Assembly (NCBI GenBank): GCA_937873395.1
Contig: CALMYH010000094.1
Coordinates: 1 to 42,655 of the forward strand
DNA length: 42,655 nucleotides
Reading direction: 5' to 3'
DNA from: an uncultured Burkholderiales bacterium
GTDB lineage: Bacteria > Pseudomonadota > Gammaproteobacteria > Burkholderiales > Burkholderiaceae_C
Part shown: piece by piece, positions 1,460 to 16,158 of the stretch
Layout: every line of letters begins with the position of its first letter
How positions within the stretch are numbered: the stretch's first letter is position 1
Translations under genes and position numbers: made by a program
The notes under the pieces: model-generated
Database searches by the model: none
Seen by the model: the letters and a program-made list of their open reading frames with translations, nothing else
What the model was told of the DNA's origin: nothing

Positions 1460-3099
<1,640 letters not shown>

Positions 3100-3103
<4 letters not shown>

Positions 3104-4347
3104 AGCTGCCGCGCCGACGCGTCCTGCTGGCCGGGCTGGGTGCCGGTGCGCTGGCGGCGCGTGCTCTGGGCGCCCAGCCTCGGCGGGAGACGGTGCGGAT
3201 TGCCTTCATCGACCCCCTGTCGGGACCGGCGGCCGACATCGGTCGCAACGGACTGCGCAGCTGGCAGTTCATGGCCGAGCGTGTCGGTGCCCGGTTCGGT
3301 GCTTCGGTGCCGCGTATTCTGGTGGCCGGTTTCGACAACAAGGCCTCGCCGCGCGAAAGCGTCAATATGCTCAGGGTTGCCATTGACCAGGGCTTCCGTT
3401 ACATCGTGCAGGGCAACGGGTCCGGCGTGGCGGCGGCCCTGTCGGCAGCGATCACCCGCCACAACCAGCAGCACCCGGAGCGCTCGGTGCTGTTCATCAA
3501 CTATGCGGCCATGGATCCGGCGCTGACCGCCGAGCGGTGCAGCTTCTGGCACTTTCGCATCGATGCCGACACAGCGATGAAGATGCGTGCTCTGGTCGGT
3601 TTCATGAGTTCCATGCCGGACCTGCGCAAGGTCTACCTGCTCAACCAGAACTACGCCCACGGTCAGCAGTTCTCACGTTACTTCCGTGAAGAGGTGGCGC
3701 TGCAGCAGCCCAGCATGGAGATTGTCGGAGACGAGCTCCACCCGCTGTTTCAGGGCTTGGACTTCCGCCCTTATGTCCAGCGCATGCGAGAGTCCGGGGC
3801 ACAAGCCCTGGTGACCGGCAACTGGGGTGCCGACATGCGAGGTCTCATCCAGGCCTTGCATGTCGAAGACATGCGCATCCCGCTGTTCGCGTATTACCCG
3901 GCACTGAAGGGGACGCCGACCCTGCTGGCGCGGAACGGGGATCGGATGCCCGTCTACCAGGTGGCCTACAACCACGGCAACCAGGCGGGGGAGGTGGGCG
4001 AACTCGCCGTGGCGTTCCGGGCGCGTTTCGGAGAAGACCTGGTGGTCTATGCCGCCTATGACGGTATCGTGATGCTGACCCAGGCGTTTGTGTTCACCGG
4101 GTCGACCGATCCGAGGCAGGTCGGCGCGCGCCTGAGCGGCATGATCTTTCCCGGGTTCAGCGGCCCGGTCCAGATCCGGGCCGACGACCACCAGTTGCAG
4201 AAAGGGCTCTACATCTCGCGCTGGCAGCCGGTCGATCAGACCCATCCGCGCGATGCCGAGGGCACCGGTTTCACCTTTGTGCCTGTGAAGTACCTCTCGG
4301 GCGCCGATCTCGCCACGCCGGTGCGCTGCCAGATGGTGAGGCCCTGA
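3100..4347 (+). CDS. ABC transporter substrate-binding protein, HAAT/LivK-like (paralogue 1)
   Basis: A periplasmic binding protein of the Leu/Ile/Val-binding type I fold, 415 residues. It starts at a GTG overlapping the ligase stop. The N-terminus PRRRVLLAG followed by an Ala/Gly/Leu-rich segment ending ALGAQ looks like a twin-arginine signal. Conserved blocks include FIDPLSG, GFDNK, AIDQG, QGNGSG, LNQNYAHG, VTGNWG and VYQVAYNHG. The next gene encodes a clear paralogue sharing most of these blocks. Such proteins in betaproteobacterial catabolic clusters bind many carboxylates, so leucine-type specificity should not be assumed. Alternative upstream starts would lie inside the ligase gene in another frame and are unlikely. 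Confidence 0.88.
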
Positions 4348-4487
4348 GCGGCCAAGGTGCCCGGGGGCGGTCCTGCGGGCGACAGTCGCCTGCGCGATAG
4401 CCGCTAGGGCAATCCCTGAGTGCTGTGCAGCATTGGACTTGTAAGCTGTGCGTAATCGGATCACCCACCCAACCACAGGAGACAGCG

Positions 4488-5717
4488 ATGAAAGCAGTGT
4501 TTCGAATCGTGGCCGGCGCCGCCGTGCTGGTGTGCGCCTTTGCAGCCCATGCCCAGAAGGGCGAAACGGTCAAGATCGCCTGGATCGACCCCCAGACCGG
4601 ACTGATGGGGCCGGTGGGCAACAACCAGCTCAAGAGCTGGCAGTTCCTGGCGGAAAGGTTTTCCCGGAACAACCCGGCCGGCGTCAGGTTCGAGGTGGTG
4701 GGTTTCGACAACAAGCTCAGTCCGGCCGAGAGCGTGACCGCCATGCAGGCCGCCATCGACCAGGGCATCCGCTACATCGCCCAGGGCAACGGCTCCTCGG
4801 TGGCCGGAGCGCTGATCGACGCGGTCAACCGCCACAACAGCCGCAACCCGGGCAAGGAGGTGGTGTTCCTGAACTACGCGGCGGTGGATCCCGATTTCAC
4901 CAACAGCAAGTGCAGCTACTGGCACTTCCGCTTTGACGCCGACACGTCCATGAAAATGGAGGCCCTGACCTCTTACATGAAGGACAAGACCGATGTCAAG
5001 AAGGTCTATCTGTTCAACCAGAACTACTCGCACGGTCACCAGGTGGCCAAGTTCGCGAAGGACAACCTCAAGCGCAAGCGCCCCGACATCGAGATTGTGG
5101 GCGAGGAACTGCACCCGCTGGCCCAGGTGCGTGACTTTGCGCCCTACATCGCCAAGATCCGCGCCTCCGGCGCCGACACGGTCATCACCGGCAACTGGGG
5201 TTCTGACCTGGCCCTGCTGGTCAAGGCAGCCAACGAAGCCGGTTACAACGGCAAGTTCTACACCTTCTACACCGGTGTGACCGGCACCCCCACCGCCCTG
5301 GGTACGGGCGGCGAGGGCCGTGTCTACCAGGTCGCCTACAACCACTACAACATGGGTGAACCGCTCAAGGGCTGGATGGCCGAGTTCAAGCAGCGCTTCA
5401 ATGACGACCTGTACACGGCTGCCATCGGCAACATCTACTATGCACTCGGAGATGCCATGGCCAAGGCCAAGTCCACCGATCCTGTGAAGGTCGCCGCGGC
5501 CCTGTCCGGATTGAAGTTCAAGGGCTTCAACGGCGAGGTCGAGATGCGACGGCTCGATCATCAGCTGCAGCAGCCCCTGTACATCACCCGCTGGCAGAAG
5601 ACCGATGCCAAGCATCCCTACAGTGCCGAAAACACCGGCATGACCCTGGTGCCGGTGGCCGAGTACCCGGCCTACGTCGCCAGCACACCGACCAGCTGCC
5701 AGATGCGCCGCCCCTGA
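4488..5717 (+). CDS. ABC transporter substrate-binding protein, HAAT/LivK-like (paralogue 2)
   Basis: A 409-residue periplasmic binding protein with a Sec-type signal peptide that probably ends at AHA before QKGET. It is paralogous to the preceding gene along its whole length: shared blocks are IDPQTG, GFDNK, AIDQG, QGNGSS, FNQNYSHG, VITGNWGSD, VYQVAYNHYN and a C-terminal SCQMRRP. The ATG at 4488 follows CAGGAGAC, and a longer in-frame start at 4425 has no ribosome site and no similarity. A 140-bp gap separates it from paralogue 1. A hairpin 9 bp after its stop may raise its mRNA level relative to the permeases. It is the more conventional binding protein of the pair. Confidence 0.9.
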   Translation: MKAVFRIVAGAAVLVCAFAAHAQKGETVKIAWIDPQTGLMGPVGNNQLKSWQFLAERFSRNNPAGVRFEVVGFDNKLSPAESVTAMQAAIDQGIRYIAQGNGSSVAGALIDAVNRHNSRNPGKEVVFLNYAAVDPDFTNSKCSYWHFRFDADTSMKMEALTSYMKDKTDVKKVYLFNQNYSHGHQVAKFAKDNLKRKRPDIEIVGEELHPLAQVRDFAPYIAKIRASGADTVITGNWGSDLALLVKAANEAGYNGKFYTFYTGVTGTPTALGTGGEGRVYQVAYNHYNMGEPLKGWMAEFKQRFNDDLYTAAIGNIYYALGDAMAKAKSTDPVKVAAALSGLKFKGFNGEVEMRRLDHQLQQPLYITRWQKTDAKHPYSAENTGMTLVPVAEYPAYVASTPTSCQMRRP

Positions 5718-5726
5718 GTCGGACGT

Positions 5727-5747
5727 GGGCAGGTGCCCCGCCTGCCC
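5727..5747 (+). other. intercistronic stem-loop after binding-protein gene
   Basis: GGGCAGG (5727-5733) and CCTGCCC (5741-5747) form a perfect 7-bp GC stem with a 7-nt loop. No T-tract follows, so a strong intrinsic terminator is unlikely. Hairpins after periplasmic binding-protein genes often stabilise the upstream transcript or cause partial termination, giving an excess of binding protein over membrane components. That role is inferred here. Confidence 0.45.
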
Positions 5748-5880
5748 CCATCAAGATGGCGGCACAATGACCGCCTAAGCACTGTCTGAACCGCGAGCCA
5801 GACCACCCACGGCCTGTGGGGGGCTGGCATCGCACGTATGCCAACCAAGGGCCACCACCAGGCCCGGAGAGAGACCACCC

Positions 5881-6906
5881 ATGGAGTTCTACATCATCTC
5901 CATGCTCAACGGACTGAGCTACGGCCTGCTCCTGTTCATGTTGAGCTCGGGCCTGACCCTCATCTTCAGCATGATGGGCGTGCTCAATTTTGCTCACGCC
6001 AGCTTCTACATGGTCGGGGCCTACCTGGGCTACACGCTGACCCAGGTGGTGGGTTTCTGGCCGGCGCTGTTCATTGCGCCCATTCTTGTGGGACTGATGG
6101 GGGCGCTGTTCGAGCGTCTGAGCCTGCGCAAGGTGCACAAGTACGGTCACGTGCCCGAGCTGCTGGTGACCTTCGGCCTGTCCTACATCATCCTGGAGCT
6201 GGTGCAACTGGTCTGGGGGCGCACGGCGGTCGAATTCCGTCCGCCCGAGATCCTGCGCGGCCCGGCCTTCACCCTCATCCATCATGCCGACGACAGCATG
6301 GGCTTCACCTGGGGCGCAGCACCGGTCGAGGTCTGCCAGGCGGCGGCGCAGAGTTTCTGTTCGCCGTTTCCGGCCACGCGGGCCTTCATGATGCTGGTGG
6401 CCGTGGTCATGCTCGTGAGCGTCTGGCTTCTCCTCACCCGCACCCGCATCGGCCTGGTGATTCAGGCGGCACTCACCCACCCCGAGACGGTCGAGACGCT
6501 GGGCCACAACGTGCCCCGCGTGTTCATGCTGGTGTTCGGCGCCGGGACCGGTCTGGCCGGTCTGGCCGGTGTCATCGGGGGCAGCACCTTCATCACCGAG
6601 CCGGCCATGGCGCTCACGCTGGGCTCGCTCATCTTTGTGGTGGTGGTGGTGGGCGGGCTGGGCTCCCTCTCGGGCGCCTTCCTGGCCTCGCTGATCATCG
6701 GTGTGGTGCAGACCTTCGCGGTGGCCTTTGACCACTCGCTCATCGGCCTCGTCCAGGGTCTGGGTCTGCAACTGTCCGAGAGCTGGCAGCAGAACAGCTT
6801 CATGCGCCTGACCATTTCGCAGGTGGCACCCATCCTGCCTTACCTGTTTCTGGTCCTCATCCTGATCTTCCGGCCCAAAGGCCTGCTCGGCACGCGGGAG
6901 ACTTGA
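5881..6906 (+). CDS. branched-chain amino acid-type ABC transporter permease, LivH-like
   Basis: An integral inner-membrane permease of 341 residues, with about eight hydrophobic segments starting at the N-terminus (FYIISMLNGLSYGLLLFM). The family signature NFAHASFYMVGAYLGY appears in the first third. The cytoplasmic coupling region around ALTHPETVETLGHN is followed by GTGLAGLAGVIGG, as in LivH proteins. A ~30-residue periplasmic insertion (about residues 120-165, with two cysteines) is larger than in E. coli LivH. The start is preceded by CCGGAGAGAG. It lies 1 bp from the LivM-like gene. With LivM it should form the translocation path of the importer. Confidence 0.9.
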   Translation: MEFYIISMLNGLSYGLLLFMLSSGLTLIFSMMGVLNFAHASFYMVGAYLGYTLTQVVGFWPALFIAPILVGLMGALFERLSLRKVHKYGHVPELLVTFGLSYIILELVQLVWGRTAVEFRPPEILRGPAFTLIHHADDSMGFTWGAAPVEVCQAAAQSFCSPFPATRAFMMLVAVVMLVSVWLLLTRTRIGLVIQAALTHPETVETLGHNVPRVFMLVFGAGTGLAGLAGVIGGSTFITEPAMALTLGSLIFVVVVVGGLGSLSGAFLASLIIGVVQTFAVAFDHSLIGLVQGLGLQLSESWQQNSFMRLTISQVAPILPYLFLVLILIFRPKGLLGTRET

Positions 6907-6907
6907 C

Positions 6908-8200
6908 ATGGCAGCGACACACTTCCGTTTCAAACCCTACAACGTCGGCCGCTGGGTCATCTGGACGCTGTTCGCCCTGGTGCTGCTGATGGCGCCCAAG
7001 GTGTTCACCAGCAACCTGTCGATCTCGATGCTCGCGCAGATGGGCATTGCCATCATCGCCTGCCTGTCCTACAACATGCTGCTGGGGCAGGGCGGCATGC
7101 TCAGTTTCGGGCATGCGGTGTACACCGGCCTGGGCTCCTACATGGCCATCCACGCGCTGCTGCGCGTGTCCGAGGGCATGATGAACATGCCGGTCAGCCT
7201 GATCCCGATCGTGGGCGGCCTGGCCGGGCTGGGCTTTGCCATCCTGTTCGGCTATGTGACGACCAAGAAGGCTGGCACCACCTTCGCCATGATCACCCTG
7301 GGCATCGGCGAACTGGTGTTTGCCATGTCGCTGATGTTCTCCGAGTTCTTCGGCGGCGAGGCCGGCATCACCGCCGACCGGGTGGTGGGTGATCCGGTCA
7401 TGGGCATCAGCTACGGACCGAACGTCCAGGTCTATTACCTGATCGCCGTCTACACCTTCGTCTGCGTCGCGCTGATGTACGCCTTCACCCGCACCCCGCT
7501 CGGTCGCATCCTGAATGCGGTTCGCGACAACCCGGAGCGCGTCGAGTTCATCGGCTACAACACCCAGATGGTGCGCTACCTGGCGTTCATCATCGCGGGC
7601 TTCTTCGCCGGCATTTCCGGTGGCCTGGCGGCGATCCAGTTCGAGATCGTCACCGCCGAGGTGGTGGGCCCGATCCGTTCGGGTGGGTACCTGCTGTTCA
7701 CCTTCCTGGGCGGCGCCACCTTCTTCTTCGGCCCCATCATCGGCGGTGTTCTGATGGTGCTGGCCTTCGTGCTGTTCTCCGAGATCACCAAGGCCTGGCT
7801 GCTCTACCTGGGCCTGATCTTCCTGTTCATGGTGATGTATGCGCCTGGCGGCATCGCCAGCCTGATCATGATGAATCTGCGGGTGGCCGCCTTTGGCCGG
7901 CTGCGCGAGCTGTGGGTGAGCTATCTGGCCATGGCCGGCAGTGCCCTGGTCATGCTGGCCGGGGCCGGAGCGCTGATCGAGATGGTCTACCACCTGCAGC
8001 TGAGCACCGCCATGGGTGACACCGTGCGATTCCTGGGGGTGCCGCTGGACACCACCCGGGCCGACAGCTGGTTCGGCGGCGCTTTTGTCATGCTCACCGG
8101 CCTGGGCATCTTCGAACTGGTGCGGCGTCGCTTCATGGTGCACTGGTCCGAAATCCAGACCGACATCGAAAAAGAGATCAAGCGCCGGGAGACCGAATGA
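6908..8200 (+). CDS. branched-chain amino acid-type ABC transporter permease, LivM-like, with C-terminal extension
   Basis: The second permease subunit, 430 residues. The core carries the LivM signatures LSYNMLLGQGGMLSFGHA, ITLGIGELVFA and the coupling loop AVRDNPERVEFIGYN. The conserved family end, YAPGGIASL, falls at about residues 311-320. About 110 further residues follow, with two more hydrophobic segments (AMAGSALVMLAGAGALIEMV and GGAFVMLTGLGIFELV) and a charged tail. Most LivM-like subunits end near the YAPGG motif or a short way after it. The stop overlaps the next ATG (ATGA), indicating translational coupling to the ATPase gene. Confidence 0.9.
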   Translation: MAATHFRFKPYNVGRWVIWTLFALVLLMAPKVFTSNLSISMLAQMGIAIIACLSYNMLLGQGGMLSFGHAVYTGLGSYMAIHALLRVSEGMMNMPVSLIPIVGGLAGLGFAILFGYVTTKKAGTTFAMITLGIGELVFAMSLMFSEFFGGEAGITADRVVGDPVMGISYGPNVQVYYLIAVYTFVCVALMYAFTRTPLGRILNAVRDNPERVEFIGYNTQMVRYLAFIIAGFFAGISGGLAAIQFEIVTAEVVGPIRSGGYLLFTFLGGATFFFGPIIGGVLMVLAFVLFSEITKAWLLYLGLIFLFMVMYAPGGIASLIMMNLRVAAFGRLRELWVSYLAMAGSALVMLAGAGALIEMVYHLQLSTAMGDTVRFLGVPLDTTRADSWFGGAFVMLTGLGIFELVRRRFMVHWSEIQTDIEKEIKRRETE

Positions 8201-9039
8201 GTCACGTGCACCCCGAACCGACGCCGCAGGCGCGGCACTACGACGAGTCCATCAGCCATGTGGCCCCGGGTGGCTATGCGCTGGAGCTGCGCAACCTGCG
8301 CAAGAGTTTCGGCAAGACCGAGATCATCCGCGGTGTCGACCTGGCGGTGCGTCGGGGCGAGCGTGTGGCCATCATCGGCCCCAACGGCGCCGGCAAGTCC
8401 ACCCTGTTCAACCTGATCTCGGGCCGCTTTGCACCCACCAGCGGCGAGGTGCTGCTGGAGGGCCGGCGCATTGACGGCAAGAAGCCCTACCAGATCAACC
8501 GCCTGGGTCTGTCGCGCAGCTTCCAGATCACCAACATCTTCCCCAAGCTCAGCGTGTTCGAGAACCTTCGCTGCGGCGTGCTCTGGAGCCTCGGGTACCG
8601 CTACACGCTGTTCCGTTTCCTGGCCGACCTGGACGACGCCAACGAGCGCGCCGAGCAGCTCATGCGCATGATCCGGCTGGACAAGAAGCGCGACACCCTG
8701 GCCATGAACCTGACCTATGCCGAGCAGCGCGCGCTGGAGGTGGGGATCACCATCGGCGGGGGGGCGGGTGTGGTGTTGCTGGACGAGCCCACGGCCGGCA
8801 TGAGCAAGAGCGAGACGGGTCGTTTCATCGACCTGATCCGCGAGGTGACCGTGGGCAAGACCCTGCTGACGGTGGAGCACGACATGGGGGTGGTGTTCGG
8901 CCTGGCCGACAAGATCGCGGTGGTGGTCTATGGCGAGGTCATCGCCTTCGACACACCCGAGGCGGTCCGTGCGAACGACAAGGTACAGGAAGCCTACCTG
9001 GGCTCCGTGCTGGCCGACCAGCAGGCGGCAGGCCACTGA
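8197..9039 (+). CDS. ABC transporter ATPase, LivG-like, with altered signature motif
   Basis: A cytoplasmic ATPase subunit of the importer, 280 residues, about 25 longer at the N-terminus than usual. Walker A is intact (GPNGAGKST, 61-69). Walker B ends in Asp196-Glu197 (LLDEPTAG) and the H-loop has His228 (TVEHD). The ABC signature is unusual: LTYAEQ at 172-177. LivG proteins normally have Y-G at this point (for example LAYGDQ), so the conserved glycine is Ala175 here. Its own ATP site therefore has all catalytic residues, while the signature it offers to its partner is degraded. It overlaps the permease gene by 4 bp and is followed 10 bp later by the LivF-like gene. Confidence 0.92.
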   Translation: MSHVHPEPTPQARHYDESISHVAPGGYALELRNLRKSFGKTEIIRGVDLAVRRGERVAIIGPNGAGKSTLFNLISGRFAPTSGEVLLEGRRIDGKKPYQINRLGLSRSFQITNIFPKLSVFENLRCGVLWSLGYRYTLFRFLADLDDANERAEQLMRMIRLDKKRDTLAMNLTYAEQRALEVGITIGGGAGVVLLDEPTAGMSKSETGRFIDLIREVTVGKTLLTVEHDMGVVFGLADKIAVVVYGEVIAFDTPEAVRANDKVQEAYLGSVLADQQAAGH

Positions 9040-9049
9040 AGGAGACACC

Positions 9050-9745
9050 ATGCTCGATATCCACAACCTGCAAGCCTATTACGGCAAAAGCCACGTCCTG
9101 CACGGCGTGTCTTTCAAGGTCGGCAAGGGCGAGATCGTCGCCCTGCTGGGTCGCAACGGCTCGGGCCGCTCCACCACCGCCAAGGCCATCATGGGCCTGG
9201 TGGACGCCACCGGTGACATCCAGTGGCAGGGCAAGAACATCCTGGGGAAAAAGCCGTTCGAGGTGGCCCATATGGGGCTGGGTTATGTGCCCGAGAACCG
9301 AGACATCTTTCCCAAGCTCACCGTGCACCAGAACCTGCTGCTGGGTCAGAAGGGCACTGGCAAGGGCAGCCGCTGGAGCTTCGACGACATGTACGGCATG
9401 TTTCCCCGGCTCAAAGAACGGCAGCACACCGAGGCCGGTGTGTTGTCGGGTGGCGAGCAGCAGATGCTCACCTTGTGCCGCACCCTCATGGGCGATCCGG
9501 ATCTGATCATCATCGACGAGCCGACCGAGGGTCTGGCCCCCAAGATCGTCGAACAGGTGGCCGAGTACCTGCAGCAGCTGAAGGCGCGAGGCGTTTCGGT
9601 GCTGCTGATCGAGCAGAAACTGACGATAGCCATGAGCATTTCCGACCGGGTGCTGGTCATGGGACACGGCAGCATTGTTTTTGAAGGCACACCCGAGAGC
9701 CTGCGGGCCGATCCGTACACCCGCAAAGAATGGCTGGAGGTGTGA
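9050..9745 (+). CDS. ABC transporter ATPase, LivF-like, with Walker A Lys to Arg
   Basis: The second ATPase subunit, 231 residues, normal length. The Walker A loop reads GRNGSGRST (34-42), so the usual invariant lysine is Arg40 (codon CGC at 9167). The signature LSGGEQ (132-137) is intact, and Walker B ends in Asp156-Glu157 (IIIDEPTEG). The H-loop position is Gln189 (LIEQK), as is common in LivF. By comparison with other ABC ATPases, its own ATP site should hydrolyse poorly while its signature can serve the LivG-like partner. A GGAGA ribosome site precedes the ATG at 9050. It is the last transporter gene and is followed by repeat copy 1. Confidence 0.92.
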   Translation: MLDIHNLQAYYGKSHVLHGVSFKVGKGEIVALLGRNGSGRSTTAKAIMGLVDATGDIQWQGKNILGKKPFEVAHMGLGYVPENRDIFPKLTVHQNLLLGQKGTGKGSRWSFDDMYGMFPRLKERQHTEAGVLSGGEQQMLTLCRTLMGDPDLIIIDEPTEGLAPKIVEQVAEYLQQLKARGVSVLLIEQKLTIAMSISDRVLVMGHGSIVFEGTPESLRADPYTRKEWLEV

Positions 9746-9748
9746 TGA

Positions 9749-9823
9749 CCCCCACGCTTCGCCGCTGCGCGGGTCGCTTCCCCCCGAGGGGGCTGATCGG
9801 CCTTGGGGCGGCCCGGCGGCGGA
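9749..9823 (+). repeat. dispersed intergenic multi-hairpin repeat, copy 1 (divergent)
   Basis: The most diverged member of a six-copy family. It starts 4 bp after the LivF-like stop. The G-rich hairpin CCCCCGAGGGGG is at 9781-9792. The second hairpin is degenerate (GGCCCGGCGGCGG). It has the same order of blocks and the same orientation relative to the upstream gene as the other copies. Confidence 0.6.
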
Positions 9824-9866
9824 TCGTCGCTTCCCGCGCCTATGACTCACTCGCGACAGGCGGCCC

Positions 9867-9894
9867 TTGCCGCAGCGCACAAACTTTCTAAAAT
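9867..9894 (+). promoter_or_regulatory. sigma70-type promoter for the beta-oxidation genes
   Basis: TTGCCG (9867-9872) and TAAAAT (9889-9894) are separated by 16 bp. The candidate operator at 9895-9908 directly follows the -10 box and would cover the transcription start, a typical arrangement for repression. The hydratase/dehydrogenase ATG is at 9954. Confidence 0.6.
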
Positions 9895-9908
9895 CGCACG
9901 ACCGTTCG
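9895..9908. promoter_or_regulatory. TetR-type operator candidate, copy 2
   Basis: CGCACGACCGTTCG differs from the copy at 1420 in one base (T to C in the centre) and is likewise followed by a T-rich stretch. It abuts the -10 box TAAAAT. The two sites together define a small regulon covering the ligase/transporter genes and the beta-oxidation genes. Confidence 0.65.
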
Positions 9909-9953
9909 TTTTTATGTCGATGCCTTGCCGTCGATCCACACCGAGGAGATTTC

Positions 9954-12062
9954 ATGACCGCTGAGTACCAGGTTCACGGCGACGTGGCCGTCATCACGCT
10001 GAACAACCCGCCGGTCAACGGCCTGGGGCTGGACACCCGTCGTGCCGTCGTCGAAGGCCTGGAAAAGGCCGAGAACGACGCCGCTGTCAAGGCCATCGTT
10101 CTGACCGGCGCCGGCAAGGCCTTCTCGGGCGGGGCCGACATCCGCGAGTTCGGCACACCCAAGGCTGTGCAGGAGCCCAATCTGCTGTCGGTCATCCTGC
10201 GGGTGGAAAACACCACCAAGCCGGTCATTGCCGCCATCCACAGCGTCTGCATGGGCGGTGGCCTGGAACTGGCGTTGGGTGCGCACTACCGCATGGCGGC
10301 CCCTGGTTGCAACGTGGCCCTGCCCGAGGTCAAGCTGGGCCTGATCCCGGGCGCCGGTGGCACGCAGCGTCTGCCGCGCGTGCTGGGGGTGGAGGCCGCG
10401 CTGAACATGATCGTCAGCGGCGAGCCGGTCAAGAGCGAGATGCTCGCCATGCTGCCCGGCCAGAAGCTGTTCGACAAGCTGGCCGCCTCGCCCGAGTCGC
10501 TGGCCGAAGAAGCCCTGGCCTTCGCCCGCGAGATGGCGGCCAGGCACGCCGACGGTTCGGCCTTCCCGCTGGTGCGCAACCTGCCCTGCAAGCACAAGGA
10601 CGGTGACGCCTATTTCCAGTTTGCCCGGAACATGGTCAAGGGCATGGCCAAGAATTTCCCGGCACCGGCCAAGTGTGTGGACGCGGTGGAAGCCGCCACC
10701 AAGAAAAAATTTGCCGACGGCATGGCCTTCGAGCGCGAGATCTTCATCAACCTGATGTGGACGGCCGAGTGCCGCTCGCTGAGGCACCTGTTCATGGCCG
10801 AGCGCGCTGCCAGCAAGATCCCCGACGTGGCCGAAGACACGCCCAGGCGCGACATCAAGAAAGTGGCGGTCATTGGCGCCGGCACCATGGGCGGCGGCAT
10901 TTCCATGAACTTCCTGAACGCCGGCATCCCGGTGACCATCATCGAGATGAAGCAGGAAGCGCTGGACCGCGGTATCGGCGTCATTCGCAAGAACTACGAG
11001 GCCCAGGTCAAGAAGGGAAAGCTCAAGCAGGACAAGTACGAGCAGCGCATGGCCCTGCTGAGCACCACGCTGAGCTACGACGACATCAAGGACGCCGACC
11101 TGGTGATCGAGGCGGTGTTCGAGGACATGGGCGTCAAGGAATCCGTGTTCAAGAAGCTGGACGAGGTCATGAAGCCCGGTGCCATCCTGGCCTCCAACAC
11201 CTCCACGCTGGACGTCAACAAGATCGCCAGCTTCACCCAGCGTCCGCAGGACGTGGTGGGCCTGCACTTCTTCAGCCCGGCCAACGTGATGAAGCTTCTG
11301 GAAGTGGTGCGCGGCGACGCCACCGCCAAGGACGTGATGGCCACGGTGATGACCATTGCGAAGAAGATCAAAAAGGTGGCGGTGGTCTCGGGTGTCTGCG
11401 ACGGCTTCATCGGCAACCGCATGATCGAACAGTACGGCCGCCAGGGTGGCTTCCTGCTGGACGAGGGTTGCACTCCCGAGCAGGTCGACAAGGCGATCGA
11501 GAAGTTCGGTTTTGCCATGGGCCCGTTCCGCATGGGCGACCTGGCAGGCAATGACATCGGCTGGGCGATCCGCAAGCGCCGCTACGTCGAGAAGCCGGAC
11601 ATGAAGTACAGCAAGACCGCCGACCTGCTGTGCGAGAAAGGCCGCTTCGGCCAGAAGACCGGCGCCGGCTGGTACGACTACGTGCCCGGCAAGCGCGACG
11701 CCATTCCGAACGCCGAGGTGGTGCAGATGATCGAAGAGCACCGCAAGGCGCTGGGCATCACGCCGCGCAAGATTTCCGACGAGGAAATCGTGCAGCGCCT
11801 GGTGTTCAGCCTGGTCAACGAGGCCGCGCACATCCTGGAAGAAGGTATCGCCAACAAGGCCAGCGACATCGACGTGGTCTACATCTTCGGCTACGGCTTC
11901 CCGGTGCACCGGGGTGGCCCGCTGAACTACGCCAACGAGGTGGGCCTGTTCAACGTGGTCGAGGCCATGAAGCGTTTTGCGAAGAACCCGCTGGACGACG
12001 CGAAGTTCTGGGAGCCCGCGCCGATGCTGGCCCGTCTCGCCGCCGAAGGCAAGACCTTCTGA
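9954..12062 (+). CDS. 3-hydroxyacyl-CoA dehydrogenase/enoyl-CoA hydratase fusion (FadB/FadJ-like)
   Basis: A bifunctional beta-oxidation enzyme of 702 residues that hydrates 2-enoyl-CoA and then oxidises the 3-hydroxyacyl-CoA with NAD. The N-terminal crotonase domain (about 1-190) has the oxyanion segment [18 protein letters not shown] and [21 protein letters not shown], containing both catalytic glutamates. The dehydrogenase domain begins near residue 300 with [13 protein letters not shown], and has the catalytic-His motif [15 protein letters not shown] and [14 protein letters not shown]-terminal 3HCDH domain follows, with [11 protein letters not shown]. The ATG at 9954 follows GAGGAG; the frame is open upstream to 9867 but without similarity. 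The length matches monomeric FadJ-type enzymes. Confidence 0.93.
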
Positions 12063-12072
12063 AGAAATGAAC

Positions 12073-12147
12073 GCCCCCCTGCGCCGCTTCGCGTCTTCCC
12101 CCCTTGAGGGGGGACGCTCCCTGTGGCCCGGCAAAGCCGGTTCCACG
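12073..12147 (+). repeat. dispersed intergenic multi-hairpin repeat, copy 2
   Basis: Starts 10 bp after the preceding stop. It has CCCCCCTTGAGGGGGG at 12098-12113 and CCGGCAAAGCCGG at 12128-12140, followed by TTCC. It fills most of the gap before the thiolase gene. Confidence 0.75.
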
Positions 12148-12200
12148 GGAGCCCTGCACGGTGCAGCTTCGCTCAACCAAGATTTCATCAGGACACCATC

Positions 12201-13376
12201 ATGACCAACGCCGTCATCGTTTCCACCGCCCGCACGCCCCTGACCAAGAGCTGGAAGGGCGCTTTCAACATGACCCACGGCGCCACGCTCGGCGGCCACG
12301 CGGTGCAGCACGCCGTGCAGCGCGCCGGCATCGACGCCGCCGAAGTCGAGGACGTGATCATGGGCTGCGCCAACCCCGAAGGCGCGACGGGTGCCAACAT
12401 CGCGCGCCAGATTGCGCTCAAGGCCGGCCTGCCCATCACCGTCTCGGGCATGACCGTCAACCGCTTCTGCTCGTCGGGCCTGCAGACCATCGCCCTGGCC
12501 GCCCAGCGCATCATCGCCGGTGAAGGCTCGGTGTACGTGGCCGGTGGTGTGGAAAGCATCTCCTGTGTGCAGCAGGAGATGAACCAGCACATGCTCAAGG
12601 ACCTGGCGCTGGAGAAGCAGAAGCCCGAAATCTACTGGAACATGCTGCAGACCGCCGAACAGGTGGCCAAGCGCTACAACATCGGCCGCGACCGGATGGA
12701 CGAGTACGGCGCCGCCAGCCAGCAGAAGGCCGCGGCCGCGCTGGAGGCCGGCCTGTTCAAGGCCGAGATCGCGCCCATCACTGTGACTGCGGGCGTGGCC
12801 GACAAGGTGATGGGCCTGATGACCAAACAGGTCACGGTCGAGAACGACGAAGGCATCCGCCCCGGCACCACCTTCGAGGCCATCCACGGCCTGCGCTCGG
12901 CGCTGCCGGGCGGTCTGGTCTCGGCCGGCAACGCCAGCCAGTTTTCTGACGGCGCCGGCGCCTGTGTGCTGATGGACGAAACCCTGGCCGAAAAGAAGGG
13001 CCTGCAGCCGCTGGGCCGCTTCCTGGGTTTTGCCGTCGCCGGCTGCGAGCCGGACGAGATGGGCATCGGCCCGGTGTTCGCCATCCCCAAGGTGCTCTCT
13101 CGCCTGGGCCTGAAGATGGACGACATCGACCTGTGGGAGCTCAACGAGGCCTTCGCGGTGCAGGTGCTGTACTGCCGCGACAAGCTGGGCATCCCGGCCG
13201 ACCGCCTGAACGTCAACGGCGGCGCCATCGCGGTGGGCCATCCTTACGGCGTGTCGGGCCAGCGCCTGACCGGCCATGCGCTGATCGAAGGCAAGCGCCG
13301 CGGTGCCAAGCGCGTCTGCGTGACGATGTGCATCGGCGGCGGCATGGGTGCTGCCGGAGTATTTGAAGTGTTGTAA
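12201..13376 (+). CDS. acetyl-CoA acyltransferase (thiolase)
   Basis: Catalyses thiolytic cleavage of 3-ketoacyl-CoA, the last step of beta-oxidation. The 391 residues carry the full catalytic set: Cys90 in [10 protein letters not shown], His347 in AIAVGHPYG and Cys377 in MCIGGGMG. This spacing matches the classical degradative/biosynthetic thiolase family. The ATG at 12201 follows TCAGGACACC; the frame is open upstream to 12123 but runs through repeat copy 2, so that extension is rejected. It pairs with the upstream hydratase/dehydrogenase, completing a FadB-FadA-like set. Chain-length preference cannot be told from sequence. Confidence 0.94.
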
Positions 13377-13393
13377 CGCCGCGCCGTAACTGC

Positions 13394-13462
13394 TCCCCCC
13401 GCGCCGCCTTCGGCGTCACCCCCCAAGGGGCGCCGTCTGCGGCCCGGCAGAGCCGGTTCCGC
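13394..13462 (+). repeat. dispersed intergenic multi-hairpin repeat, copy 3
   Basis: Starts 17 bp after the thiolase stop. A short GC hairpin (GCCGCCTTCGGCG region) is followed by CCCCAAGGGG at 13421-13430 and CCGGCAGAGCCGG at 13444-13456, then TTCCGCG. Confidence 0.75.
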
Positions 13463-13519
13463 GCCGGCCGCGGATGGGCGCCTCCTCTGACGGCGCGCCA
13501 ATTCTTCTGGAGACGCTTC

Positions 13520-15343
13520 ATGTCCTTGCGCCCCACCGTCGACTTTCTGCTCTACGACTGGTTGTCGGTCGACCGTCTGAACCAGCGTGAGCGGTTTGCG
13601 GACCACAGCCGCGAGACGTTCGACGCCGTGCTCGATACCTGCGAGCGCATCGCCCGCGAGAAGTACGCGCCCTTCAACCGGCTGGTGGACACGCAGGAGC
13701 CGCACTTCGACGGGGAGAAGGTGATCCTGCCGCAGGCCACGCACGACGCGCAGAAGGCTTACGCCGAAAGCGGCATGCTCAGCGCTGCTCAGGACTACGA
13801 GATCGGCGGCATGCAGCTGCCCTACTCGGTGGAGGCCGCCGCCAATGCCTTCTTTGCCATGGCCTCGGTGTCCATCGGCAGCGGCATGCTGACCACCGGC
13901 AACGCCAACCTGCTCATGGCGCACGGGAGCGAGGCGCAGAAGCGCGTGTTCGCGCTCAACGAGTTCAACGGTCGCTGGTCGGGCACCATGTGCCTGAGTG
14001 AACCGCAGGCCGGCTCGTCGCTCAGCGACGTCGCGACGCGCGCCCTGCCCGACGGTGCCGATTTCGAGAGCGACCCGCTCGGTCCGCGCTATCGGCTCAA
14101 GGGCAACAAGATGTGGATCTCGGCCGGCGAACACGAGCTGACCGAGAACATCATTCACCTGGTGCTGGCCAAGATTCCGGGACCGGACGGCAAGCCGGTG
14201 CCGGGCGTCAAGGGCATCTCGCTGTTCATCGTGCCCAAGAAGCTGGTGGACACCGACGGCCAGCTCACCGGTGAGCGCAACGACGTGGCGCTGGCGGGCC
14301 TCAACCACAAGTGCGGCTGGCGCGGCACCACCAACACGCTGTTGAACTTCGGCGAGGGCAAGTACCCCGTCCGAGGCGAGGCGGGCGCCGTGGGTTACCT
14401 GGTCGGCCAGCCGGGCGAAGGCCTCAGGTGCATGTTCCACATGATGAACGAGGCCCGAATCGGGGTCGGCCTGGCCGCCACCATGCTGGGCATGGCGGGT
14501 TACCACGCCAGCCTGGACTACGCGAAGAACCGTCCGCAAGGCCGCCCCATGGGCCCGGCCGGCAAGGACGCATCAGCACCCCAGATCCGCATCATCGAAC
14601 ACGCCGACGTCAAACGCATGCTGCTGGCGCAGAAGAGCTACGCCGAAGGCGCGCTGGCGCTGGAGCTGTACTGCGCCCGCCTGGTCGACGAGCAGCACAC
14701 CGGCGCCCCCGAGGCCGCTGATGACGCGCGCCTGCTGCTGGAGGTGCTGACCCCGATTGCCAAGAGCTGGCCCAGCGAGTGGTGCCTGGAGGCGAACTCG
14801 CTGGCGATTCAGGTGCACGGCGGCTACGGCTACACGCGCGACTTTCCGGTCGAACAGTACTGGCGCGACAACCGCCTGAACATGATCCACGAGGGCACAC
14901 ACGGTATCCAGGGCATGGACCTGCTGGGCCGCAAGGTGCTGATGGAGAACGGCAAGGGCCTGCAACTGCTGGCCGGCCGCATCAACGAGACCATTGAGCG
15001 CGCCATCCAGGTGCCCGACCTCACCACCCACGCCAACGCGCTGGGCAAGGCCCTGCAGGACGTGGGCTCGGCCACCAAGGCCGCCTGGGCCACCGGCCAC
15101 CCGACCGACGCGCTGGCCAACGCCGTGCCCTACCTGCAGGCCTTCGGTCACACGGTGCTGGCCTGGATCTGGCTGGACGTGGCGCTGGCCGCACAGGCGC
15201 AGCCGGGCAGCCACGCCCGCACCGGCAGGCTGGCCGCCGCGCGCTTTTTCTTCCACTACGAGCTGCCCAAGATCGGCGCCTGGCTGCAGGTGGTGCGTGA
15301 GCGCGACCTCACCTGTGCCAGCCTGCCCGAAGACGCTTTCTGA
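13520..15343 (+). CDS. acyl-CoA dehydrogenase, DmdC-like with C-terminal extension domain
   Basis: An FAD enzyme that introduces a 2,3 double bond into an acyl-CoA. At 607 residues it is longer than ordinary acyl-CoA dehydrogenases (~380-400). It has the extra C-terminal domain typical of the 3-methylmercaptopropionyl-CoA dehydrogenase (DmdC)-like subfamily. Visible motifs are CLSEPQAGSSL, the core segment MNEARIGVGLAATMLG, YGYTRDFPVEQYWRD and IHEGTHGIQGMDLLGRK. Glu458 in the last is the probable catalytic base. The ATG follows TTCTGGAGACGC. The subfamily includes many uncharacterised members in fatty-acid and aromatic clusters, so dimethylsulfoniopropionate metabolism is not implied. Confidence 0.9.
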   Translation: MSLRPTVDFLLYDWLSVDRLNQRERFADHSRETFDAVLDTCERIAREKYAPFNRLVDTQEPHFDGEKVILPQATHDAQKAYAESGMLSAAQDYEIGGMQLPYSVEAAANAFFAMASVSIGSGMLTTGNANLLMAHGSEAQKRVFALNEFNGRWSGTMCLSEPQAGSSLSDVATRALPDGADFESDPLGPRYRLKGNKMWISAGEHELTENIIHLVLAKIPGPDGKPVPGVKGISLFIVPKKLVDTDGQLTGERNDVALAGLNHKCGWRGTTNTLLNFGEGKYPVRGEAGAVGYLVGQPGEGLRCMFHMMNEARIGVGLAATMLGMAGYHASLDYAKNRPQGRPMGPAGKDASAPQIRIIEHADVKRMLLAQKSYAEGALALELYCARLVDEQHTGAPEAADDARLLLEVLTPIAKSWPSEWCLEANSLAIQVHGGYGYTRDFPVEQYWRDNRLNMIHEGTHGIQGMDLLGRKVLMENGKGLQLLAGRINETIERAIQVPDLTTHANALGKALQDVGSATKAAWATGHPTDALANAVPYLQAFGHTVLAWIWLDVALAAQAQPGSHARTGRLAAARFFFHYELPKIGAWLQVVRERDLTCASLPEDAF

Positions 15344-15366
15344 ACACCCCTCACCAGGAGACACAC

Positions 15367-16158
15367 ATGACACGCACCATCCAGCAATTGTTCGACCTCA
15401 AGGGCCGCACCGCGCTCGTCACCGGCGGCTCGCGCGGCCTGGGCCTGCAGATGGCCCACGCCCTGGGCGAGGCCGGGGCTCGCGTGCTGATCAGCTCGCG
15501 CAAGGCCGAGGACCTGGAACAGGCCACCGCCGAACTGCAGGCCGCCGGCATCGACGCCCGCTGGATCGCGGCCGACTGCCAGCATGAGGACCAGATCCGC
15601 AAGCTGGCCACCGAGTCGATGGAACGCCTGGGTGACATCGACATCCTGGTCAACAACGCCGGCGCCGCCTGGGGCGCCCCGGCCGAAGACCACCCGCTGG
15701 AGGCCTGGGACAAGGTCATGAACCTGAACGTGCGCAGCTACTTCTTCCTGAGCCAGCTGGTCGCCAAGGGCAGCATGATTCCGCGCAGGAAGGGCAGCAT
15801 CATCAACACCGCGTCCATCGCCGGCCTGGGCGGCAACCCGTCCGGCATGAAGACGATTGCCTACAACACCTCCAAGGGCGCGGTCATCAACTTCACGCGC
15901 GCACTGGCGGCCGAATGGGGTGCGCACGGCATCCGCGTCAACGCCATCTGCCCGGGTTTCTTCCCCAGCAAGATGACGCAGGGCACGCTCAAGGCCATGG
16001 GCGAGGACAAGCTGGCGGCGCACGCGCCGCTGGGCCGGCTGGGTGATGATGAGGACCTCAAGGGCCTGACCCTGCTGTACGCTTCCGACGCCGGCAAGCA
16101 CATCACCGGCCAGTGGCTGGCGGTGGACGGTGGTGTCAGCATCGTCACCGGGGGTTGA
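15367..16158 (+). CDS. SDR-family oxidoreductase (1 of 3)
   Basis: A classical short-chain dehydrogenase of 263 residues. It has the Rossmann glycine motif TGGSRGLG (19-26), NNAG, Ser in NTASIAG and the catalytic pair Tyr166/Lys170 (YNTSK). It ends with GQWLAVDGG, typical of the family. The arginine after the second glycine motif and the SSRK segment suggest NADP(H) preference, which is an inference. The likely role is oxidation or reduction of a hydroxyl/keto group on a CoA-linked or ring substrate. It is spaced 23 bp from the acyl-CoA dehydrogenase with a CAGGAGAC ribosome site, and directly abuts the thioesterase gene, so it sits inside the operon. Confidence 0.92.
   Translation: MTRTIQQLFDLKGRTALVTGGSRGLGLQMAHALGEAGARVLISSRKAEDLEQATAELQAAGIDARWIAADCQHEDQIRKLATESMERLGDIDILVNNAGAAWGAPAEDHPLEAWDKVMNLNVRSYFFLSQLVAKGSMIPRRKGSIINTASIAGLGGNPSGMKTIAYNTSKGAVINFTRALAAEWGAHGIRVNAICPGFFPSKMTQGTLKAMGEDKLAAHAPLGRLGDDEDLKGLTLLYASDAGKHITGQWLAVDGGVSIVTGG

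Follow-up and report, generated by a model that had tools for sequence, protein, structure and literature searches.

We analysed a stretch of 42,655 nucleotides from an uncultured Burkholderiales bacterium (contig CALMYH010000094.1, assembly GCA_937873395.1; hereafter the window), in which two adjacent genes encode the LivF-like and LivG-like ATPases of an ATP-binding cassette (ABC) transporter of the HAAT type. Judged from its sequences, the system is probably an importer with a permanently asymmetric ATPase pair, in which one composite ATP site (site B) would hydrolyse ATP and the other (site A) would be slow or non-hydrolysing. The alteration of site A is real, is not a local oddity and has been kept through long evolution.

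The livG-like gene (8197–9039; 280 residues, P0001, with PF00005 and PF12399) and the livF-like gene (9050–9745; 231 residues, P0005, with PF00005) lie on the forward strand, as do all features given below. The livF-like start is the ATG at 9050, and the program-listed open reading frame (ORF) start at 8930 falls within the livG-like gene. According to excerpts of a published article (PMC7756269), a composite ATP site consists of the Walker A and B motifs, Q-loop and H-loop of one ATPase together with the signature of the other. By analogy with known ABC dimers, these elements of LivF and the LivG signature should make up site A, and those of LivG and the LivF signature site B. The LivF Walker A motif reads GRNGSGRST (residues 34–42, 9149–9175), with Arg40 (codon CGC, 9167–9169) in place of lysine, and the LivG signature reads LTYAEQ (residues 172–177, 8710–8727), with Ala175 (codon GCC, 8719–8721) in place of glycine. 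Since site A combines LivF with the LivG signature, both substitutions would fall in this one site, opposite each other.

Site B is intact. The LivG Walker A motif is GPNGAGKST (8377–8403), the catalytic Glu197 (8785–8787) and the switch His228 (8878–8880) are present, and the LivF signature is LSGGEQ (residues 132–137, 9443–9460). Across the 274 LivF/LivG pairs compared below, the Walker A lysine was found in 272 LivG proteins (the stretch was missing in the other two), and the glutamate, the histidine and the glycine of the LivF signature in all 274. By sequence, consensus residues are missing from one composite site and present in the other, the pattern that marks degenerate-site ABC proteins. 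A preliminary description of this DNA had named Arg40, Gln189 and LSGGEQ in LivF and Ala175, GPNGAGKST, Glu197 and His228 in LivG, had placed both substitutions in one site and had described the other as intact; all of its residues were read correctly and both statements hold. Assignment to the HAAT family was based on an operon that combines a Peripla_BP_6 protein gene with a pair of PF02653 permease genes and a pair of unfused ABC ATPase genes, and on a BCA_ABC_TP_C (PF12399) match of the LivG-like protein (34.4 bits, cut-off 25.5).

Near relatives were defined as the 80 loci, among the matches listed in a search of the genome collection, with a LivF identity of at least 80%. GRNGSGRST was found in 80/80 of them and LTYAEQ in all 79 with a LivG on the contig (L032 had none). 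Their record titles name Hydrogenophaga, Polaromonas, Variovorax, Acidovorax, Ramlibacter and similar genera, besides unclassified records. The earlier suggestion that other betaproteobacteria share the LivF Walker A arginine was therefore borne out in 80/80 of the near loci listed. A sequencing error or local pseudogene was ruled out, both motifs being identical in 79/79 near pairs.

Wider searches, with overlapping samples and with Lys-type LivF among the matches, covered the order (399 genomes, 91 matched at 1e-60), the class (369 genomes, 6 matched at 1e-63, three of them already found in the order search) and the phylum (398 genomes, 33 matched at 1e-66). They carried the set into further orders of this class and across the phylum, and the named alphaproteobacteria with the trait are Paracoccus, Sulfitobacter and Phaeobacter plasmids (8 of 35 plasmid records were read). 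From 345 loci, 274 adjacent LivF/LivG pairs were retained after removal of identical LivF cores (e.g. L272 and L278), and 16 LivF-like ORFs that had no LivG next to them were dropped before counting. Pairs were found by score thresholds against the two window proteins, so that very distant HAAT pairs are missed and the sample leans to relatives of the window LivF and to the window's phylum.

The clade of the window was defined without reference to the trait, by a LivG identity of at least 50% to the window protein; the remaining 97 pairs had at most 45%. All 177 distinct clade pairs combined a LivF arginine with a LivG alanine (159) or serine (18), and none of the 97 others showed either combination. 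Written as LivF lysine position/LivG fourth signature residue, the states of the 274 pairs were R/A 159, R/S 18, R/G 19, K/G 76, K/S 1 and K/P 1. The 177 pairs form one side of a branch with support 100 (FastTree, 274 pairs, trait columns excluded). Within the clade, LivF identity to the window goes down to 53% with arginine and Ala/Ser still kept. Arg40 is encoded by five codons (CGC 111, CGT 35, CGG 17, CGA 11, AGG 3) and the LivG signature residue by eight different Ala or Ser codons, and selection therefore holds the residues and not the DNA. The median ratio of nonsynonymous to synonymous substitution rates against the window gene was 0.15 for LivF (125/177 comparisons usable) and 0.26 for LivG (36/177 usable). 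Five further pairs of adjacent LivF and LivG genes were extracted from the window's genome, and none of them combines the arginine with glycine loss; the LivF of all five carry lysine, which rules out the arginine as a general LivF trait of this genome.

Arg40, Lys190, Ile193, Gly205 and Trp228 are the five LivF residues that reach at least 97% fixation in the clade and occur in at most 10% of K/G pairs; two of them, 40 and 190, are located at the ATP site. By the same measure, the clade-fixed positions of LivG are Ile43 and Arg56. Gln189, at the switch-histidine position, and the clade-specific Lys190 are encoded at 9614–9619; Gln189 is present in 177/177 clade pairs. At position 190 the clade has Lys (174) or Arg (3), whereas Asn stands there in 62 of 76 K/G and 18 of 19 R/G pairs. 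Lys190 comes directly after the switch position and may fill in missing phosphate contacts at site A.

The asymmetry is wider than the clade. Among the 274 pairs, the switch-histidine position of LivF holds Gln in 267, Lys in 7 and His in none, against His in 274/274 LivG, so that the earlier statement that glutamine is usual there is well founded. At the Q-loop position, LivF has Glu (253), Gln (18) or Asp (3) and every LivG has Gln, and the Walker B glutamate is present in both proteins in 274/274 pairs. Escherichia coli K-12 agrees at the switch position (LivF EQN, LivG EHD). HAAT site A is thus already non-consensus in every sampled pair, with two further losses in the window clade. Since no sampled LivF has the switch histidine, the usual view of two equivalent sites may not apply to HAAT importers in general. 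As a separate observation, the seven LivF-like proteins with Lys (L002, L280, L296, L306, L307, L311 and L312) read DK[ND] at this position and have the Walker B motif DEATEGL.

A second LivF-Arg clade of 19 pairs was found in which LivG keeps its glycine (L242, L244–L246, L251, L255, L256, L258–L265, L270, L271, L273 and L274). It forms one branch with support 95; all members have a CPE Q-loop (CPE[EH]R) and the Walker B motif reads DEI[ST]EGL. A single origin of both Arg clades was rejected (approximately unbiased test, p 3.4e-5, on 47 of the 96 tree rows). Two pairs with lysine lack the signature glycine, L008 (ITPSQQ; same genome as the window, contig C89) and L342 (LTLPNR; elsewhere). The LivG proteins of L008 and L342 also have altered H-loop neighbours, EHA and EHL, and their partner LivF has a normal Walker A motif. 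On a mixture-model tree of 96 of the 274 pairs (short search), the arginine needs two changes and the glycine loss two, coinciding once, in the window clade. The 274-pair FastTree gave the same counts, with a warning of meeting long branches, including L008 with L342; since these two meet, Lys pairs may have lost the glycine either once or twice. Within the sample, the joint state has a single origin and was then kept.

A pattern search for Walker A arginine (299 genomes, 40 matched) brought the LivF-Arg pairs with a LivG glycine to light, along with chance and non-LivF matches. Six matches (L229, L232, L233 and L238–L240) were due to chance, as no frame of at least 80 residues spelled the motif, and four (L266–L269) were rejected as LivF, being exporter-like ATPases. 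The latter, from the same phylum (family code f255), have the Walker A motif GRNGAGRST and are a further Lys-to-Arg case outside LivF.

These observations (the residues, their conservation, the asymmetry across the sampled HAAT pairs and how often the traits change on the trees) are consistent with a mechanism in which site B, formed by the LivG Walker A/B motifs, Q-loop Gln and His228 with the LivF signature, would bind and hydrolyse ATP and power the transport stroke, most likely with one ATP hydrolysed per cycle. Site A keeps the Walker B Glu but has lost four residues, namely the Walker A Lys, the Gln of the Q-loop, the His of the switch and the Gly of the signature. It would most likely bind nucleotide weakly, or hold or sense it without turnover, as has been described for other transporters with a degenerate site, and would act as a hinge or clamp. 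In HAAT importers, site A was non-consensus before these changes (no sampled pair has the switch His), and the window clade went further and kept the result. We infer both the loss of turnover at site A and its role from sequence.

Several points weigh against this mechanism. The Walker B glutamate is present in LivF in 274/274 pairs, so slow hydrolysis at site A is possible; arginine can in principle partly replace lysine; and arginine alone need not mark a dead site, as it also occurs with a Gly signature in 19 pairs. The AlphaFold model of LivF, built with 15 close sequences, is too poor for the pocket, with a mean predicted local distance difference test (pLDDT) score of 68 and values below 50 at residues 33–39 (the P-loop) and 189–215.

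Chance fixation would explain the same pattern without a function of its own: both changes would have been fixed in one ancestor and retained since site A was by then dispensable. The trees, with two changes for each trait and a single coincidence, fit such a history, as does the lack of a switch histidine in site A of 274/274 pairs. A dispensable position should drift, yet Arg40 is kept in 177/177 clade pairs with five codons and the signature residue is restricted to Ala or Ser, and we regard this explanation as rather unlikely.

The changes might also be neutral or compensating, with Arg40, Lys190 and Ala/Ser175 forming an alternative, fully catalytic pocket and both sites hydrolysing ATP. 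The Walker B glutamate kept throughout LivF, the clade-specific Lys190 beside the switch position and the signature glycine retained in the second Arg clade speak for such a pocket. Against it, four usual contacts of site A are jointly missing in 177/177 pairs: the lysine of Walker A, the glutamine of the Q-loop, the switch histidine and the signature glycine. Excerpts of PMC7756502 further report that the human sterol pump ABCG5/G8 is inactive in vivo when changes corresponding to those of its altered site are put into its intact site. A fully catalytic site A is accordingly improbable.

The preliminary description had proposed that Walker A arginine and loss of the facing glycine evolve together in HAAT importers. 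Co-occurrence is complete within the clade (177/177, no exception), but outside it the two come apart, in the 19 Arg pairs with glycine, which are an independent clade, and in the two Lys pairs without it. Fused importers of the CUT2 family point both ways: among 22 proteins (22 of 30 loci parsed by alignment; 40 genomes of the window's family, 16 matched), the second Walker A motif has Arg in 18, His in 2, Lys in 1 and Gln in 1, and the first signature has Ala in 12, Gly in 9 and Ser in 1. Arginine stands with Ala or Ser in 10/22, while glycine is kept in 8/18 Arg-bearing proteins and missing in 3/4 without arginine. Because two independent contrasts cannot reach significance, the trees neither show nor exclude coupling, and as a general rule it is very doubtful.

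The asymmetric transporter lies within a beta-oxidation-like operon (1460–16158). Neighbour counts were obtained from 58 loci with full flanks (tblastn, identity at least 45%). The operon begins with an acyl-CoA ligase gene (1460–3103; NCBIfam 3-(methylthio)propionyl-CoA ligase, 1017 bits, cut-off 822; matched in 57/58), followed by genes for a substrate-binding protein (4488–5717; Peripla_BP_6; 58/58), a LivH-like permease (5881–6906; PF02653; 58/58) and a LivM-like permease (6908–8200; PF02653; 58/58). Downstream of the ATPase genes are a FadB-like hydratase/3-hydroxyacyl-CoA dehydrogenase gene (9954–12062; below the FadB cut-offs; 56/58), an acetyl-CoA C-acyltransferase (thiolase) gene (12201–13376; PRK07108, above cut-off; 54/58), an acyl-CoA dehydrogenase-like gene (44/58), named from a reading of its sequence and with no NCBIfam match to 1e-30, and SDR genes. 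Because of this context (acyl-CoA ligase, FadB-like protein and thiolase), the cargo is likely a carboxylate that would be activated to a CoA thioester and degraded by beta-oxidation, and not a branched-chain amino acid. In Phaeobacter (L223) and Caballeronia (L224), more distant R/S members adjoin alpha-ketoacid dehydrogenase genes; the cargo therefore probably differs within the clade, and the state of site A would not be tied to one pathway.

Two further features of the operon were noted. A second substrate-binding-protein-like gene (3103–4347; start uncertain, the ORF opens at 2986) stands 5' of the usual one and was matched in 37/58 loci, a count in which cross-matches with the first binding protein are not excluded. 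The LivM-like permease has 430 residues; its PF02653 match ends at residue 311 and is followed by a hydrophobic stretch and a charged tail.

Compared with known systems, the window transporter resembles LivFGHM and UrtBCDE in its gene set, its Pfam domains, the LivF glutamine at the switch-histidine position and the LivG histidine. It differs from them in the Walker A arginine, the signature Ala/Ser, the acyl-CoA genes in the operon and the scores of its ATPase pair, which are all below the NCBIfam cut-offs (bits/cut-off: LivF 170.6/441, UrtE 227.9/285.8, LivG 164.8/362, UrtD 192.9/304.1); the LivF-like protein scored best against UrtE.

The layout had earlier been likened to TM287/288 and CFTR. 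The analogy is sound in that these, too, are heterodimeric or two-domain ATPases in which a consensus site is paired with a degenerate one. In a TM287-type degenerate site the Walker B glutamate is lost. In CFTR (ABCC7), serine replaces this glutamate, according to excerpts of PMC7756269. These proteins are an exporter or a channel, whereas in the window system the Walker B glutamate is kept (LivF 274/274) and the Walker A lysine is lost, and ABCG5/G8 and CUT2 are closer parallels than the two chosen earlier. The membrane fold of ABCG5/G8 differs from that of HAAT importers. In the excerpts of two articles (PMC7756502, PMC7756269), the ABCG8 Walker A motif is GSSGCGRAS, facing the ABCG5 signature ISTGE, and one site is inactive for hydrolysis. 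As far as these excerpts describe it, ABCG5/G8 is, like the LivF/LivG pair, a heterodimer with a Walker A arginine and an altered facing signature in one site and an intact other site; it differs in being an exporter and in that the ABCG5 signature keeps glycine at the fourth place, where Ala or Ser is found here.

CUT2 permeases also belong to Pfam PF02653. For RbsA and NupO of Bacillus subtilis, which are CUT2 proteins, a second Walker A motif without lysine and a deviant signature are given in excerpts of PMC11466899. Read from the alignment of the sampled CUT2 proteins, the first domain has SH or TH at the switch position and the second SS or ST, without a histidine. CUT2 transporters are, like the window system, importers having a degenerate site, with an Arg Walker A motif in 18 and an Ala/Ser signature in 13 of the 22 sampled; they differ in that their ATPase domains are fused in one chain and their cargo is sugars or nucleosides, whereas the window has two separate ATPase genes.

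As in the preliminary description, which knew of none, no report of a degenerate ATP site in HAAT importers was found in the parts of the open-licence PubMed Central literature that were covered. The layout itself is already known, within the excerpts cited, in importers (CUT2) and in the human pump ABCG5/G8. The phenomenon is therefore more general than first thought, and less unprecedented. ATP stoichiometry and the roles of degenerate sites have, in our impression, been studied mostly in exporters. With Lys/Gly, Arg/Gly and Arg/Ala-Ser pairs as a graded series on a shared scaffold, the effect of each loss could be studied on its own. We tentatively consider, as a possibility somewhat short of even, that every HAAT importer, and likewise the fused CUT2 relatives, hydrolyses ATP at a single site. 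The LivF site would have lost its switch histidine at the root of the family and would now be a fixed nucleotide clamp; the window clade would later have arrived, independently, at a more complete degeneracy with Walker A Arg and signature Ala/Ser, as is found in CUT2 and, in part, in ABCG5/G8. If this is true, the window clade would be a naturally separable, two-gene model of an importer that uses one ATP per cycle.

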